64,000 nucleotides of DNA. Source: Leptodontidium sp. MPI-SDFR-AT-0119 (Eukaryota > Ascomycota > Leotiomycetes > Helotiales > Leptodontidiaceae). The DNA lies in contig JAHLEZ010000002.1 of assembly GCA_020726505.1 (NCBI GenBank), positions 434,001 to 498,000 on the forward strand, in the 5' to 3' direction. Each line of letters opens with the position of its first letter. Position 1 is the first letter of the stretch. Shown in pieces: positions 386 through 7,885 of this stretch. The translations under genes and the position numbers were made by a program. Under the pieces are notes generated by a model. That model had not been told where the DNA came from and searched no databases. It was given only the letters and a program-made list of their open reading frames with translations.

Positions 386-582
386 TGTCGTGCAAGAGCA
401 CGCCTAGAGGCTCCACAGAGGCGAAATTGACGTATTATTGAGGTATGCGCAGTACTGTAATTGATCGTTGTATTCTCTACGTATGGTCTATTCAAGCTCC
501 CTGAATATGGAGGTCGCGGGCGCTTTGGCCATGGTGCCTTTGATTGGGCTCGCTTAGCCGGCCTACCATAACCTGCACGACA
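386..582 (-). repeat. 3' LTR of the copia element
   Basis: 197-bp terminal repeat, TG...CA, identical to the copy at 7684-7880 except for A instead of T at 424 and 426. It is the 3' LTR because the polyprotein reads on the minus strand towards it. Confidence 0.95.
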
Positions 583-593
583 CACCCCCTCGC
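583..593 (-). other. Polypurine tract of the copia element
   Basis: On the minus strand the bases directly before the 3' LTR read GCGAGGGGGTG, a G-rich purine run in the place expected for plus-strand priming. It shows that the sequence just inside the LTR belongs to the element. Confidence 0.75.
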
Positions 594-757
594 CAAGGAC
601 AATACTAAGCTTTGGCGAAGCAAACAAGTGCTCAACAAACATGATAGACAATAGGAAATCGACATCTAATATATAACTGACAATATGAAAGCGACAGACA
701 GTAAGGGAAAATGATAAGCAGTAGCCAAAGCAAACATGCCAAACGTCCAAACGAGAG

Positions 758-763
758 TATATA
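758..763 (+). promoter_or_regulatory. Possible TATA box of the antisense accessory gene
   Basis: TATATA lies 52 bases upstream of the ATG at 815, inside the retrotransposon and on the strand opposite to the element's own transcription. The spacing suits a fungal core promoter, so the gene may have its own transcription start. Confidence 0.4.
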
Positions 764-814
764 GACAACTGCTCCCCCATCGTAACTTCCTTCTGTAAGC
801 ATACCAAATTCAAA

Positions 815-1649
815 ATGGGTCGTGTCTCCGCCGCCAAGTTGGCCGCCCGCGCCTCTCGGCGCTCCAACCTCGCCGCTGCTCGCGCAGCAAAGAAGGTACG
901 TTTCCCTTGTGTTTTACTAATTTGAGATTGGTTCCGACGTTGTCTGAGTCAAAAAGTTGAGAAGTTGGGTGGGTTAGAGTATGCTGACCAGCTGTAACAG
1001 TCTGCCGCCGCTCCTCGCCGCCGCACCCCCTCTCCTGCGCCCCCTCCTGCCGCCCCTGCCACCCCCTCTCGCCGCCGCGCTGAGGCAGGTGCTGATAGGG
1101 AGGTCCCTTGCTCGGCATGCGTCAAAGCTGCCTTGAAAGGTGACCTCCCTGTCAGCATCTGTCAAGATGCCGCTGGCTCGGCTCGGTGCCTTCGGTGCCA
1201 CAGTCAGAATCATGGTTGCGCCGGTCCTGTTGGGCCTGCTGTTGCGGTGGCTTTTGCCGCCTTTTTGGAGGAGAAGCGTGGTGCCTCGCGCACCCGCGTA
1301 AGTTTGACTTTGGTTCTTGTGGTTTTGAGTTTGGCTAACTCTGAGTAGCAGTTGAAATCCCTCCGGGCCGCGGTCCGTGAGGCTCTTGCTGCTCCTGGTA
1401 TGTTTATTCCGTCTTTGCAACAGCTTTAAAGAGACTGACTTTAGTTGTCTAGCCGCTGCCGCCCCCGCCCCCGCCGCTGCCCCTGCCCCCGCCCCCCGCC
1501 CAATCCTCCCACCTGTTCGGGTTGGTGCTGGTGCTGGTGCTGTTGGTGCTGGTGCTGCTGCTGCTGCTGATGGTGCTGGTGGTGTGGCCGCCCGCCGCCG
1601 CCGCATCAAGGAGTTGCTGGTGGAGCTGGTGGACTTGTTGGTGGTTTAG
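815..1649 (+). CDS. Spliced Cys-cluster, Ala/Pro/Arg-rich protein gene antisense inside the copia element
   Basis: Four exons, 815-895, 1001-1297, 1352-1397 and 1453-1649, join in frame to 206 residues. Donors are GTACGT, GTAAGT and GTATGT; acceptors are ACAG, GCAG and CTAG; each intron has a good branch point (GCTGAC, GCTAAC, ACTGAC). Residues 1-27 are basic and Ala-rich. A Pro/Ala/Arg stretch follows, then a six-cysteine cluster at 64-100 with spacing C-x2-C-x13-C-x8-C-x2-C-x6-C, which recalls a Zn2Cys6 motif with a longer first loop. The end has Ala/Pro and Gly/Ala repeats, four arginines and a short hydrophobic helix. A zinc-stabilised nucleic-acid binding role is inference. I do not recognise a named family. 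The gene lies wholly between the polyprotein stop and the 3' LTR, so it travels with the element. Because it is antisense, its introns would not be removed from the element's RNA. Confidence 0.7.
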
Positions 1650-1885
1650 TTCGCGACTTGATAGCGGCTTGGGAACGTGCCCCTTCAGAGTTATGGTTTG
1701 CTACCTTATGAGCAGCTTGGGAACGGGCCCTTATGTACTTGCTTTGCGTTGGTTTGGTTGTGGCTTCGGCCGGAATGGAATTCCTGCCCTCTGACAACTT
1801 GAAAAGAACGTGCTTGACGTGACTGTGCCACCTTGAAAAATACAAAGGAAAACAAAAGAGTGTGTTTTGCAGTAAGGTGCAAGCT

Positions 1886-4800
1886 TCAATTGAGCTCTTC
1901 TACCGACGCCCTAGCATCTTGTAGGTTAAGCAGTGCTAAGAAGGTCTCAAACTTCTGGCGTGGGAGGTTTTTAGTGAGGCCATCAGCGTACATCTCACTA
2001 ATTACTGGGCAGATACGTAACCTCAAAACTGCCTTTTTGGTGCTCCTGGCGTAGCCACATATTCTGAATATCAACGTGCCTGAGCTTAGTCGATATACGC
2101 TGGTTCTCTCCAACTATGAGCCTAATCGTCTGTTGGTTGTCACAGAAGATGTTCCAGGGGCACCCCACATCAAGGTGCATTTCTCTAAAGAGCCTCTGCA
2201 GTGCCATAACCTCCTTTGCAGTTCGCTCCACCCCCAAGAGCTCAGCTTCTGTAGTCGAGGTGGTGACTGTGTCTTGCCTAGATGCTTTCCACAGTATGGC
2301 ACCCCCGAACAAAAGAATGACGAGCCCTTGTGAAGAACGCCTAGTTTCCAAATCATCTGCGAAAGAGGCATCAGACGCTATTACAAGCTGCGTTTCGCGC
2401 TGTTGACAGCTGTAAACGATCCCTAAGAAGCGTGTACCGAACAGGTAACGTATCGTCCAATCGACAGCCTGTAGGTGCTTCTGGCTTGGGTTCGTCAAGA
2501 ATTGCGACAGCTGTGAAGCTGCAAAAGCTACGTCCGGTCTGATCATGACAGCCGTGTACAGGACGGATCCGACCTTTTCTTGGTACTCCTTGATTTGTGC
2601 CTTCGTCGCTTTGCCCGTGTTTTTGACTAGGTCGTAGTACGGCAGAGGGGTGCTCGGGCAGTTGCCATCTACTAAGCTGAATTTCCGGGCCACCTTCTCT
2701 ATGTACGTGTCGTGGACTAACGTGACTGTTCTCGCATGTCTGTCCCGTACAATTCGCACCCCTAGAAACCACTCCACGTCACCCATTACAGTTAGCTCGT
2801 AGGCTTTATTAAGGCCATCGATGATTTTGGCCGCTGCAGCGAGGTTTGACTTGTGGTACAGCACTTGTATGTCGTCTACGTAGAAGGCCACAAACACTGT
2901 GCGCTTGTTGTTTGTAAATATGCAGGGCTCTTCTGCAAGTGGCTCTAGACCAAGGCTTCTGAGTGTAGCTGAGAAGTCGCCATACCATAGGGCTGGGGAG
3001 TCGCGTAGGCCATACAGGGCTCTGTCGATCTTTACAACCATGCCGGGCTGCTTGAAACCGTCAGGAAGGTAACAGTAGACGGGTGCACTTCGTTCGTCTC
3101 GTTCTGCATTAACAAAAGCGTTCACGACGTCGTACTGCTTAACTTCCAAGTCAAATTGGGCTGCCAGGGCCATCGCAACACGAAAAGACCTCGCCGCTAG
3201 TGTGGAGGCGTACGTGGAGAATATGGTGGCATCCTCCTGCAGGTCACCCCTAGCAACGATACGCGATTTGGTGCGTACAAGCTGTCCAGCTGAGTTAACT
3301 TTGTAGGTAAACACCCATTTTAGTGGTATAGGCGTCGTTTTAGCGTCTGCCCTAGGCACGATATGCCAGCATTTCCTAGCCTGGAGGTTCTCTATCTCCT
3401 TGCGTGCGTCCTCTCGGAAGCGTTCTCCCCACGGGTGCTGGTCTAGGTTCTGCCAGTACTTTGGTGCTGTCGGAAGCTTTGCCTGATGTGGTTGTGTTGT
3501 TTCAGAGCTTGCAGTTTCCTGTGCTCTGATCGTTTCACCACTGACTGCAGCTGCAAAGACAGCATGCACAGTTCTATGGTCTTTACCATCTTCTCGCGTC
3601 ACGTCTTCATTCCAGAACGTCGTGGTGAAGGATGCGATTTGCGTATGGTTCTTGTCTTTTTGGTCCATGGACTCGGCGCTTAGGAGCTCCCTTGTCGTGA
3701 AGGAGTATACTCCCGGCCTAATCTTTGACCGTCTATTCAACTGTATTGTCTCTCTGGCTCGCCTTCTCCGCTGAGCTCGAGTGACAGGGTGCAGTTGACT
3801 TTGGTTAGGTGCCTGCAACACTTCGTCTAAGGTCTCTTGAGACATGGTTTCTTTCAACAGGGGTTGTGTTGTTGTCTCTGACGGTGTGTTTTCCAGGAGT
3901 AGTTGTTGTTCTTCCTCTGGCTCGTCGTCGTAATCCTCCTCAGACGAGGTGTTTTCGTGCTGCAGTGCACTTCCTGGGCCTGCACTGGTTGCTTCAGTTT
4001 GGCGCAGTAGTTGACTCTGGCTGTCTCGTGCTCCACTCCAAATTACAACTTGAGGTATTGATTTGCGCGCACCCTCAATCTGGCGTGGTGGTTTCGCACG
4101 TGGGGCACCCCTCCCAGGCTCGATATGTTCGTTTCGTTGTGTCTGGCTTCGAGTCTGTCTTGGTGTGCCTAGGCTTTTTGTTGTTGCCAGAACTTCTGTA
4201 TCGTCCTTGTCAAGCTCCATGTCGTCCCCCGACGTGTTAATTCGTGAATCTAACGGTACTATCTCATTCTGGTGCTCTCGTGGAACAGGCAGTCCCGCCT
4301 CAGCAGTTGCGTGCAGGACTACCTCCGTAGAAACTTCGTCGACTTCCATTAGGTCAGACAGTAGCCTGTTCAATTCAGTACTGTTTTTCGCCTCCGCATG
4401 CTCGTCCCCTACGTGTTCGATGGCTAACTCGGCGTCCCAAGCGGCCTCAGGCTCCGCAAGCATATCAACGACCTGTTTAAGTATCGGCAGTGGTTGGCCG
4501 ACCACTGCCTGCTTGCTGTAGAACTGTGCCTCATCAAAAACAACGTTTCGGGTACGTATTACACGCTTCAGCAGGGGTATCCAGATCCTGTATATGTTGG
4601 TTGCACAGTAGCCAACCAGGTAACCGACGTGCCCCCTTGGGTTGACCTTAAAGCCTCTCTTGTCACGGAGAGCTTGTCGGTCTTTGATCATCGCGTAGGC
4701 TTTGGCGCCATACGCAAAAATGTTGCTCCAGTCAGGTCTCAAATCGACTAACAACCTCTTCACTATGTGTGGATCGTACCACCGAAAATACTGCCTAAAC

Positions 4801-7631
4801 CATGCTTCTAGGACTTCGTTTGGCGACCGCATGGCTCTCCTGGCCAATGGCGACATGTTGTATAAGTATGCAGCCGTCAAAACAGCCTCCGGCCACAGCT
4901 TAGATGGTAGATTGGCGCCTGTCATCATTTTCAAGGCCTTGGCAATTAGCTCCCCACCAGCTCTTTCTGCACCTCCATTTGGCTCATGCGTGTAAACAGG
5001 AGTAGGCTCTAGGTCGATGCCATTGTCTAACGCCCATTGGTCGTACTGGGTCCAGTATCTTGTGTTAATTACAGACGTGTCGTTGTCGGACCTGACTTTG
5101 CATATGGCCAGACCGTATTGGCGTCTGGTCCATACCTCAAATGCTTCAAGCACTCCCATGATTGACTCGTTGGCTTTGCTCGTGAGTGTAAATGCGAAAA
5201 GCTTTCCACTGTATTCGTCCTTAATCAACAATAGCCAGCATGTGCCATTGTAGCCTACAGGGTAGTCAAACAGGTCCCATGCGACTCTGAAGAAAGGTCT
5301 CGGGGACTTGTTGTCTGACTCTCTGCGCGATGGTCGTTGATTTGAGTGTGTTACAGTACAGCTTTCGCATTGTATGCCAGTGATTCCATCGATTTGGACA
5401 TTGCGGGCATGCTTCACAAGAGCTTCCAGGGCCATTTTGCCGAGGTGACCAGCCCGTAAGTGCCACATTTGTGCTGTATCGCTACGGGGCCGTAGGAACC
5501 GGCGGGTTGACTGAAAGGTATGCTTCTTGAGAGGGTGCAGTCGTCTACTGATCGTCGGGTATATCATTACAGCAGGAGATCTACGTGTCTTCATGAATGC
5601 ATGTAGTTGTGGAGAGCGCGAGCAGTTGTCAACAGGCTTGTATTCAAATACCATAAGGTTCCACCTGCGCTGCAGGGTTCTCACTACATGGCTCTCTTCA
5701 GCACTGCCTACGCGCAAAGTCGTGTCAGCACCATTATACCACACCCCCGACTGTGCGAGGAGGCTCTCTGAGATGATGTTAACGTTAAACCCCTCTACAA
5801 CTGCCACATTAGACAGTGTCAGGTCCCTTGTGAACGGTCCGGCAGGTCCATGCATAGCGTTCTCGAAGACACGTGTACCCCTGCCAATGATAGGCAGGCT
5901 TGAGGTGCCCGCGTCAACTGATTCTCCTGTGGTGCGTTTGAAGCTGCCAGGGACTAGTTTATCAATGCTATTGACTAAGTGAGTCGCGCCGCAGTTGTCG
6001 ACAAGAGTGCTGTCTGACAGAGGGTGGCGTTGGAACTCCATGGTACTGTATATGCCAGCGTTAAGAGTGTCGTCCCAGATCATGTCGTCAAGGAGGTTTG
6101 GGTCAAGTACAGCTGCGTTAATGCTCCCTGTTCCTTCCCACGTAGCTTTGCCTTTGTCTTTGTTTCCTGCAGGTGCAGCGGCATCGGCTGTTTTGGCGTT
6201 GGTAGTAGGTTTAGAGGTGCTAGTGCTGTTGGCTCCAGTGATTTTGGCTACTGCAACGTACTTCCAACCTTCTTTGGCTATGGCGGCCTTGAGCTCCCTG
6301 AAGTCTGCAGTCTCCAACTTCTTGCGGGTTGCAGTTACCTCGTCAGCGTTTGGCACATGCTTCATGCCTTCGGTGGTCGTTCCGTCAACTGCATAACGTA
6401 GTCTCCAACACTTGAGCGGCTCAAAGAAGTGCTTGCTGTTCATGCCGCATGGGCATAAGTTACCTTGGCCGCGAGAGCAAGATCTGCTGGAGCTTGCGCC
6501 CGACGCACCATCGTCCATTCCTCCAAGGGTTGAGTATTGACCACCACCCCCTCCTTGACGCCTGGGCTTCCTGAACATGGTGTGCTCTTGGTCTATGCCA
6601 GGGAGCACCTGAATGTAGTCGTCAAGAGTAAAACCATGCTCCTTTCCAAGTTGGTCGTCGCGTATAACTGTGCTGAGGATAGGATTTGCCCAATCAGGGT
6701 GCATGTGAGCTCCCACAGCACGTAACCACTTCTTTAGAGCCACAGTACCCTTGACTTCAGGTATGTCGTACGCTTTGGCATTCCTGTAAGCCTTCAAGAA
6801 GTCCTTCATCCACTGGTTGACGTTGACTTTTCCCTCATGTGCCTCCTTCAAAACCTTGTCGTATTCCGTGACCACCGTTGTAAGGACCGACGATTCTGAT
6901 GGTGCTATGTCGCGCTGAAGTGTGCTAACTAACGTTTGTAAGCTCAGGTCGCTCTTGCCGGCCAGTTCCCTAATCGCAGAGTCCAAAAGCGAATCGTCCA
7001 CCGTTTCGGAGAGCCAGTTGTATAGAGCCATGTACTTGTTGTTTTGGCTCGTCCATTCAGCAAGCGTGTACTGGTACTCCCTGGCTTGTGCTGCGTAGAT
7101 CTGCTGCACCTCTGCAATTGTCGGGTATGGAGGTGGACCAGCTTCTTCTGGACTTGTCCCTCCCATTGGGGCATCTGTCGATATGGCTGGGGTAGGTGTA
7201 GCCCACGCGTTGTCGGACGACTCAGGCGTTGAAGACGGTTGTAGGTTTGCTGCTTTCCAAGCTGCAACATTAGCGTAATACTGGCTCAACTGAGTCTTTG
7301 CAACCTCTTGCGTAGTGCTTTCGAGCGTTGGAGCCTTGGGTCGGTGGTTTGGGATATGGCCTGTCGCAGGAGCGCTGGGGTCTACTATATTTGGTGCACC
7401 TATGAAGCCAGCATGGAATGTCAAGCGCAAGTGCCATGTCGCCCAATCCTTCCGCGCCTTCAAATTGCAGTCCGTAGGTAGCCTAGGAAGTGACATTGTC
7501 GGTTTTGGGTATGTATATAATGATTTCGAAGAGGTTTTGATGATTTGAGGGTTGTTGACGGGCTTTTGAGTACTGCTAGTACGTGTGTAAGGCAGCGGTG
7601 AGAAAGCCTCTGCATGCCTCTGTGGAGCCAC
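1886..7631 (-). CDS. Copia gag-pol polyprotein, one-base frameshift near the C terminus
   Basis: One 1,877-codon frame covers almost the whole polyprotein. In order: a gag region with a CPCG...H...C knuckle near residue 396; a protease with the variant motif VDNCGATH near 543; the integrase zinc domain (HLRAGH and CESC, about 725-750); the integrase core with acidic residues in WDLFDY, RSDND and PNGGAERAG (about 786, 847, 883); reverse transcriptase with KSRIVARGD, ALYGLRDSPALW and YVDD (about 1583); and RNase H with ASDASF, TEAELLG and KLRHVDIQ. The frame stops at 1998 just before the expected ADGLTK block, which continues one base out of frame to a stop at 1886. A surplus A:T pair at 2000-2001 explains the break. 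The first ATG is at 7631; a later in-frame Met at 7496 is a possible start. Confidence 0.92.
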
Positions 7632-7672
7632 GTCGGCGCGTGCATGCGACTGGGAAGCTTTGATAGCTTACG

Positions 7673-7683
7673 GGGCTCATAAC
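7673..7683 (-). other. Primer binding site, half-tRNA-iMet type
   Basis: Just inside the 5' LTR the plus strand reads GGGCTCATAAC. This is the sense sequence of the anticodon arm of initiator tRNA-Met, with anticodon CAT. The element RNA therefore carries its complement, GTTATGAGCCC. Drosophila copia and relatives prime from an internal fragment of initiator tRNA in this way, not from the tRNA 3' end. Confidence 0.8.
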
Positions 7684-7880
7684 TGTCGTGCAAGAGCACG
7701 CCTAGAGGCTCCACAGAGGCGTATTTGACGTATTATTGAGGTATGCGCAGTACTGTAATTGATCGTTGTATTCTCTACGTATGGTCTATTCAAGCTCCCT
7801 GAATATGGAGGTCGCGGGCGCTTTGGCCATGGTGCCTTTGATTGGGCTCGCTTAGCCGGCCTACCATAACCTGCACGACA
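7684..7880 (-). repeat. 5' LTR of the copia element
   Basis: 197-bp terminal repeat, TG...CA, followed by the right copy of the GAAAA duplication at 7881-7885. It differs from the 3' LTR at two bases only. Confidence 0.95.
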
Positions 7881-7885
7881 GAAAA

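Follow-up and report, generated by a model that had tools for sequence, protein, structure and literature searches.

An antisense gene with introns and a six-cysteine cluster in a clade of Ty1/copia elements of Leptodontidium

A Ty1/copia element in the window, the 64,000-nucleotide stretch of the Leptodontidium sp. MPI-SDFR-AT-0119 genome analyzed here, carries a four-exon gene on the strand opposite to gag-pol, between pol and the 3′ LTR. A copia clade has long carried this gene, and recombination has exchanged it between elements. We consider it probable that it is an accessory gene whose TATA-driven, spliced transcript encodes a basic six-cysteine protein of ∼200 aa that regulates its own element in trans from the nucleus.

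Structure of the element and its antisense gene

The element spans positions 386–7880 of the window and is oriented on the minus strand. LTR comparison places its 3′ LTR at 386–582 and its 5′ LTR at 7684–7880 (197 bp each, with two differences between them), and the target-site duplication GAAAA flanks both ends (381–385 and 7881–7885). The polypurine-tract-like motif CACCCCCT has its first base at 583 and reads AGGGGGTG on the minus strand (583–590); the stretch adjoining the 5′ LTR (7672–7683, minus strand) we take to be a putative tRNA-complementary primer-binding site. The gag-pol frame (1998–7631, minus strand; 1877 aa counted from the first start codon) has Pfam matches to rve (782–880, below the curated cut-off), SH3_retrovirus (965–1038), and RVT_2 (1420–1663, E = 1.9e-35). 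Integrase core and SH3 domains thus precede an RVT_2-type reverse transcriptase (RT), the copia order, and paired TG..CA LTRs with 5-bp target duplications, as found in 22/22 copies with an LTR pair, agree with Ty1/copia membership.

The sequence-only reading had placed the gene between a pol stop at 1886 and the polypurine tract. This order stands, but the pol frame of the window copy closes at 1998, and the pol C-terminus (1886–2113, minus strand, from frame comparison) continues to 1886 in another frame because of a small indel near the pol C-terminus that is common to a second copy, L011. The gag-pol frames of these two copies stop ∼100 bases before that of copy L009. L011 combines the same indel with identical LTRs, so this form has moved recently, alone or helped in trans.

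The antisense gene occupies 815–1649 of the plus strand and encodes 206 aa, and its parts follow from a spliced model and an alignment of copies. A TATATA motif at 758–763 is kept in 37/37 aligned copies reaching that far. Exon 1 (815–895) starts with the ATG at 815 and encodes a basic, Ala-rich N-terminus; exon 2 (1001–1297), for which ω gives further evidence, encodes a Pro-rich part and all six cysteines, in the cluster C-x2-C-x13-C-x8-C-x2-C-x6-C. Exon 3 (1352–1397) is followed by the Ala/Gly-rich exon 4 (1453–1649), with a conserved C-terminus and the stop codon at 1647–1649. All three introns (896–1000, 1298–1351, and 1398–1452) are GT..AG, and 1650–1885 separates the 3′ ends of the two converging genes. 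The exon and intron coordinates, splice boundaries, protein length, TATA box, and cysteine cluster proposed by the sequence-only reading are all reproduced.

Searches with the protein of three family members gave no Pfam match above the cut-off, and a search of PDB sequences with the antisense protein returned no convincing relative of solved structure; Rfam and tRNA scans yielded nothing useful. The zinc- and nucleic-acid-binding readings of the protein therefore rest on its cysteine pattern and composition.

Coding selection on the antisense frame

The antisense frame is under purifying selection between young versions of the gene, and the overlapping sense ORF is not. Between the window copy and L011 (191 codons), dS is 0.40 and dN 0.12, giving ω = 0.31 (bootstrap range 0.20–0.48); whole-gene ω was 0.31–0.33, and in both of two comparisons 0/2000 bootstraps reached ≥ 1. 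Over the 72 codons of the exon-2 core, the antisense frame is without stops and has ω of 0.20, 0.19, and 0.23 against L011, L010, and L012, respectively, values that draw on few lineages. The minus-strand ORF at 974–1609 gave 2.14, 1.41, and 1.19 in three comparisons, and the sole other frame with low ω (0.26–0.38) contains 3–4 stops. L011 compared with L034, a mutated copy carrying another gene version (types B and C, respectively, below), gave a core ω of 0.75 from few changes. Transversions make up 47/97 of the differences between the window copy and L011, so mutation bias alone does not explain the low ω.

Presence across copies and passage of introns through transposition

We searched a 77-Mb, 69-contig assembly for further copies. 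The LTR gave at least 41 matches (40 scored of 131 candidates), and a separate search with 3′ pol sequence, independent of the LTR, found at least 40 (40 scored of 85 candidates). By coordinates, the gene adjoins 40/40 scored pol-3′ matches. It is also present in 9/9 full-length copies chosen solely by their LTR pair and in all 22 full-length copies with paired LTRs, every one of which has identical 5-bp flanks. These 22 came from 29 checked loci, of which five had one LTR and two no fitting pair. The gene thus belongs to the mobile unit, as had been claimed from the matching LTRs, target duplication, primer site, and polypurine tract, and no full-length copy without the region was found among the nine LTR-pair copies or the 40 scored pol-3′ matches.

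A copy that dropped the gene would be shorter and could use the protein in trans, and none occurs among the 40. This suggests that carrying the gene benefits its own copy or that the DNA itself is required.

The LTR pairs of L009, L010, and L011 show zero differences, and every intron is present in all three copies, which shows directly that transposition leaves the introns in place. The explanation offered earlier, that antisense orientation lets the introns survive, fits these three copies: in the genomic RNA of the element, the template of reverse transcription, these segments do not function as introns and would therefore persist.

At L020 (472–1838), one LTR and the antisense gene occur without pol; we set this locus aside as a candidate domesticated gene, since two of its cysteines are lost to an in-frame deletion in exon 2 and its exon 4 is frameshifted. 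L046 (G000:C13:169900-171100) is a mutated exon-2 homologue in a 1.2-kb stretch that has no pol match.

Gene versions and cassette exchange

The 38 aligned copies fall into type A (21, including the window copy) and types B and C (17 together). Type A has four exons and an intron 1 of 105 nt, and intron 1 measures 57–58 nt in types B and C. Type C (n = 7) also has four exons, and in type B (n = 10) intron 3 is tandemly duplicated together with a 39-nt exon, both duplicates being in phase 1. The duplication was read fully in L010, L011, and L012 and inferred from length and alignment in the other seven. A type B model with a single intron 3 was rejected, the alignment having hidden the tandem duplicate; an internal stop of L010 falls in the second duplicate and is absent from the duplicated-intron model.

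Near-identical pol genes can carry very different antisense genes. In 200-base bins, the window copy is 100% identical to L011 over ∼4786–7585 and 94–100% identical across the remaining pol, and identity is 64–92% over 586–1585, where L011 has type B. To L009, it is 100% identical over 586–1785 and 2186–4585, with 95–96% between these blocks and 91–98% over 4786–6585. This uneven identity makes the window copy a mosaic. Exchange of the gene cassette between elements by template switching during reverse transcription would be the likeliest route. The two differences between the LTRs of the window copy are both transversions, whereas L009, L010, and L011 have no differences within their pairs; taken with the mosaic structure, this may point to strand transfer from one template to a different one.

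Age and distribution of the gene

The gene also occurs in more distant copia groups. In a second group (type D; L047–L050), it adjoins the same LTR-end and polypurine-tract motif, and a pol part from this group (L052) shows 57% identity over 550 aa. By eye, one or more of the four type D copies retain Cys at four of the six cysteine positions, and all four copies have Tyr at C67 and C93, as a G-to-A change yields.

A third group (type F; L053) has an RT that is 62% identical and an antisense gene undetected by tblastn with type A. Its parts nonetheless follow the type A order, with a basic N-terminus, two introns at matching places, a cysteine cluster (C-x2-C-x12-C-x9-C-x2-C-x5-C, the second Cys being Tyr in L053 and Cys in the protein P0005), and a Leu/Val-rich C-terminus. 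The L053 model reads the intron 1 acceptor as a mutated AG, contains one stop, and needs no third intron.

The type F exon-2 piece as query matched 108 places in the genome. Among 150 scored RT matches (412 candidates), 106 have a homologue in antisense orientation 1045–2159 bp downstream of the RT; a homologue lies on the same strand at five and upstream at one. Detection varied with RT identity: 9/9 at ≥ 85%, 32/35 at 65–84%, 11/15 at 55–64%, 32/38 at 50–54%, 20/47 at 45–49%, and 2/6 below. At the 44 other RT matches, no homologue was detected at the expected place, where it may be absent or merely undetected. Eight RT matches at 49% identity, including G000:C19:392587-393258, have stop-free frames of 966–1504 aa and no antisense-gene match alongside, and L054 of the same C19 family has no recognizable homologue in 601 bases, a short stretch. 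This family may have arrived recently and lends itself to comparison with the others.

A protein search returned seven matches at E ≤ 0.01, namely three from Leptodontidium (two isolates), two from Leptodophora, and two ENA entries. P0006, from Leptodontidium sp. MPI-SDFR-AT-0119 itself, is a homologue of the antisense gene. The annotated exon joins of P0005 (type F) coincide with the inferred introns 1 and 2, and those of P0002 agree by eye with type B introns 1 and 2, in gene models that may in both cases be predictions only. P0005 comes from a Leptodophora isolate, and by eye only two of its first 79 residues differ from L053, both as C/Y; such likeness would fit a recent common ancestor or horizontal transfer of the element.

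The sequence-only reading took the gene to be captured. Capture as a one-off event is not supported: the gene is common to deeply diverged copia groups, other LTR elements are known to have antisense accessory genes in this position (PMC7264820; PMC11963269), and no host progenitor was found in the genome or the protein collection, in a protein search that needs shared 5-residue words and scores the best candidates, so that a remote progenitor could be missed.

Decay by repeat-induced point mutation

Many copies bear the mark of repeat-induced point mutation (RIP), with TpA/ApT of up to 2.02 and GC content down to 0.30. All changes to the start codon and splice sites among the 38 aligned copies are G-to-A, the direction of RIP. 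The start codon is ATG in 16/38 and ATA in 22/38; deviating copies number two at donor 1, seven at acceptor 1, five at donor 2, eight at acceptor 2, and ten at donor 3, and acceptor 3 is AG in 38/38. Cysteine codons show solely TGY-to-TAY changes, except in L020, where the deletion falls.

Exon lengths are kept: exon 1 is 81 nt in 38/38, exon 3 is 46 nt in 37/38, and the length of exon 2 is divisible by three in 35/38 (the exceptions being L032, L037, and L044). With ATA at the start in 22/38 and stops in many copies, few copies are able to make the protein. Full spliced models of the window copy, L009, L010, L011, L012, and L034, picked for having few stops, are open in 6/6.

Relation to known systems

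The kind of gene described here is already known: antisense accessory ORFs between pol and the 3′ LTR occur in Grande, Retand, and, as brtn, in Boty. The passages on such ORFs (aORF-3R) in two papers name gene23 of maize Grande, rice RIRE2, Silene Retand, and PvRetro13 (PMC7264820; PMC11963269). As described there, they share with our gene the place between pol and the 3′ LTR, the strand opposite to gag-pol, and presence in most copies (here 40/40 scored, with coding conservation at a core ω of 0.19–0.23) (PMC7264820; PMC11963269). Some of their products are nuclear or predicted to bind DNA, and Grande is credited with a promoter of its own for this ORF (PMC7264820; PMC11963269). Retand is a gypsy element (PMC11963269), whereas ours is copia. 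These passages describe no intron within the antisense ORF (PMC7264820; PMC11963269), and the 2020 review calls for a search for spliced antisense transcripts (PMC7264820). The Retand product, as the relevant passages have it, contains a TRP28 domain; TRP28 (PF04195) is absent from the Pfam matches of our three family members at E ≤ 1. Grande and RIRE2 are likewise gypsy elements.

Within fungi, the closest parallel by description is brtn of Boty-like elements, reportedly described by Zhao et al. in 2011. The passages we drew on give it as an antisense gene of Boty-like elements in Botrytis cinerea (PMC8365987; PMC7264820; PMC4227169; PMC5987419), thus an extra antisense gene in an LTR element of a Leotiomycetes fungus, like ours. 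Boty differs in being a member of BcGypsy1 with a chromodomain in pol, according to the same kind of passages (PMC8365987; PMC4227169). No protein named BRTN is among the matches of our protein searches, which require shared 5-residue words.

The six cysteines share the order C-x2-C .. C .. C-x2-C-x6-C with the fungal Zn2Cys6 domain (PF00172), whose spacing is CX2CX6CX5-12CX2CX6-8C. The first loop here is x13 (x12 in type F) rather than about x6, and PF00172 gave no match at E ≤ 1. Ty1 copy number in yeast is controlled by p22 and an antisense RNA, and p22 resembles the proposed protein as a self-limiting product of a copia-type fungal element; p22 is a sense-strand piece of Gag, whereas nothing in our antisense gene derives from Gag. 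By description, HBZ of HTLV-1 is also an antisense gene near the 3′ terminus of a retroelement, with a spliced transcript and a product that acts as a nuclear regulator. HBZ resembles bZIP proteins and is started from within the 3′ LTR, whereas our gene has its TATA box beyond the LTR and encodes a cysteine cluster. The role of the protein as a regulator of its own element would most likely resemble that of HBZ, which is mentioned alongside the Retand antisense work in the part of that paper considered here (PMC11963269).

For rotifer LTR elements, whose extra ORFs have also been studied, the passages considered describe no antisense genes with introns (PMC5408684). We found no Ty1/copia element with a multi-intron antisense gene in the literature covered, which leaves out most subscription papers, so that absence is unproven. 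The copia host element, the multi-intron structure, the conserved six-cysteine cluster, the intron duplication, and the cassette swapping are apparently new.

Proposed function and alternative explanations

Under the explanation that we favor, the gene's own TATA promoter, just inside the 3′ LTR, would drive a transcript opposite to gag-pol, from which three introns (four in type B) would be removed. The resulting basic protein, with a probably zinc-binding cysteine cluster, would most likely enter the nucleus, bind nucleic acid, and act in trans on the expression or copy number of its own element.

The useful product could instead be the antisense RNA, pairing with the genomic RNA or disturbing its 3′ end and so causing silencing or copy control. 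The two genes converge, so full-length sense RNA crosses the antisense gene, and double-stranded RNA is raised as a role for such genes in a passage of the 2020 review (PMC7264820). We nevertheless regard RNA as the main product as improbable, because ω is ∼0.2 in the protein frame only and because exon lengths stay in frame (exon 1 in 38/38, exon 2 in 35/38) with splice signals kept; an antisense RNA could also work alongside the protein. Recent capture of a host gene by one copia family, followed by spread, would account for the introns, the TATA box, and a gene-like layout unlike that of most retroelement genes. It is less probable still, since copia groups whose RTs are only 45–60% identical carry diverged homologues in the corresponding position and no host copy was found in the genome or the protein collection, although remote relatives could be missed and matches far from an LTR or RT, such as L046, were only partly covered. 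An old capture is possible.

Two further readings we think very unlikely. The 211-aa minus-strand ORF at 974–1609 might be an extra sense-strand ORF after pol, and it is open in the window copy; its ω values exceed 1, the place and length of the longest minus-strand stretch vary in L010, L011, and L012, and the frame test led us to reject it as a real gene. Exon-intron structure might also arise by chance in GC-rich, low-complexity DNA, as exons 2 and 4 include Ala/Pro repeats that align poorly between types. Yet splice sites, TATA box, and start are conserved, selection acts on one frame, and diverged homologues have the same layout. Because the 38 aligned copies share frame, sites, and phases, a homologue missed by tblastn has two of the introns in equivalent positions, and ω is ∼0.2 in the antisense frame vs 1.2–2.1 in the sense ORF, the sequences identify a real gene of the spliced type, beyond chance.

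On the favored explanation of a protein-coding accessory gene, the elements of this clade probably each encode an additional protein with a regulatory role. A further conjecture, which we hold only tentatively and think rather unlikely in full, is that a multi-intron gene older than the split of the copia groups, viable only in antisense, encodes an HBZ-like trans-regulator whose swapped cassette versions serve incompatibility or copy control.

Antisense placement lets spliceosomal introns, and even a tandemly duplicated extra intron, persist in an element that moves through RNA. The system also offers a test set in a filamentous fungus, with young copies bearing identical LTRs, two divergent gene versions on near-identical gag-pol, and a cysteine cluster that can be mutated. 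If the conjecture on cassette versions is true, regulation or tolerance between elements within one genome would depend on which versions they carry.
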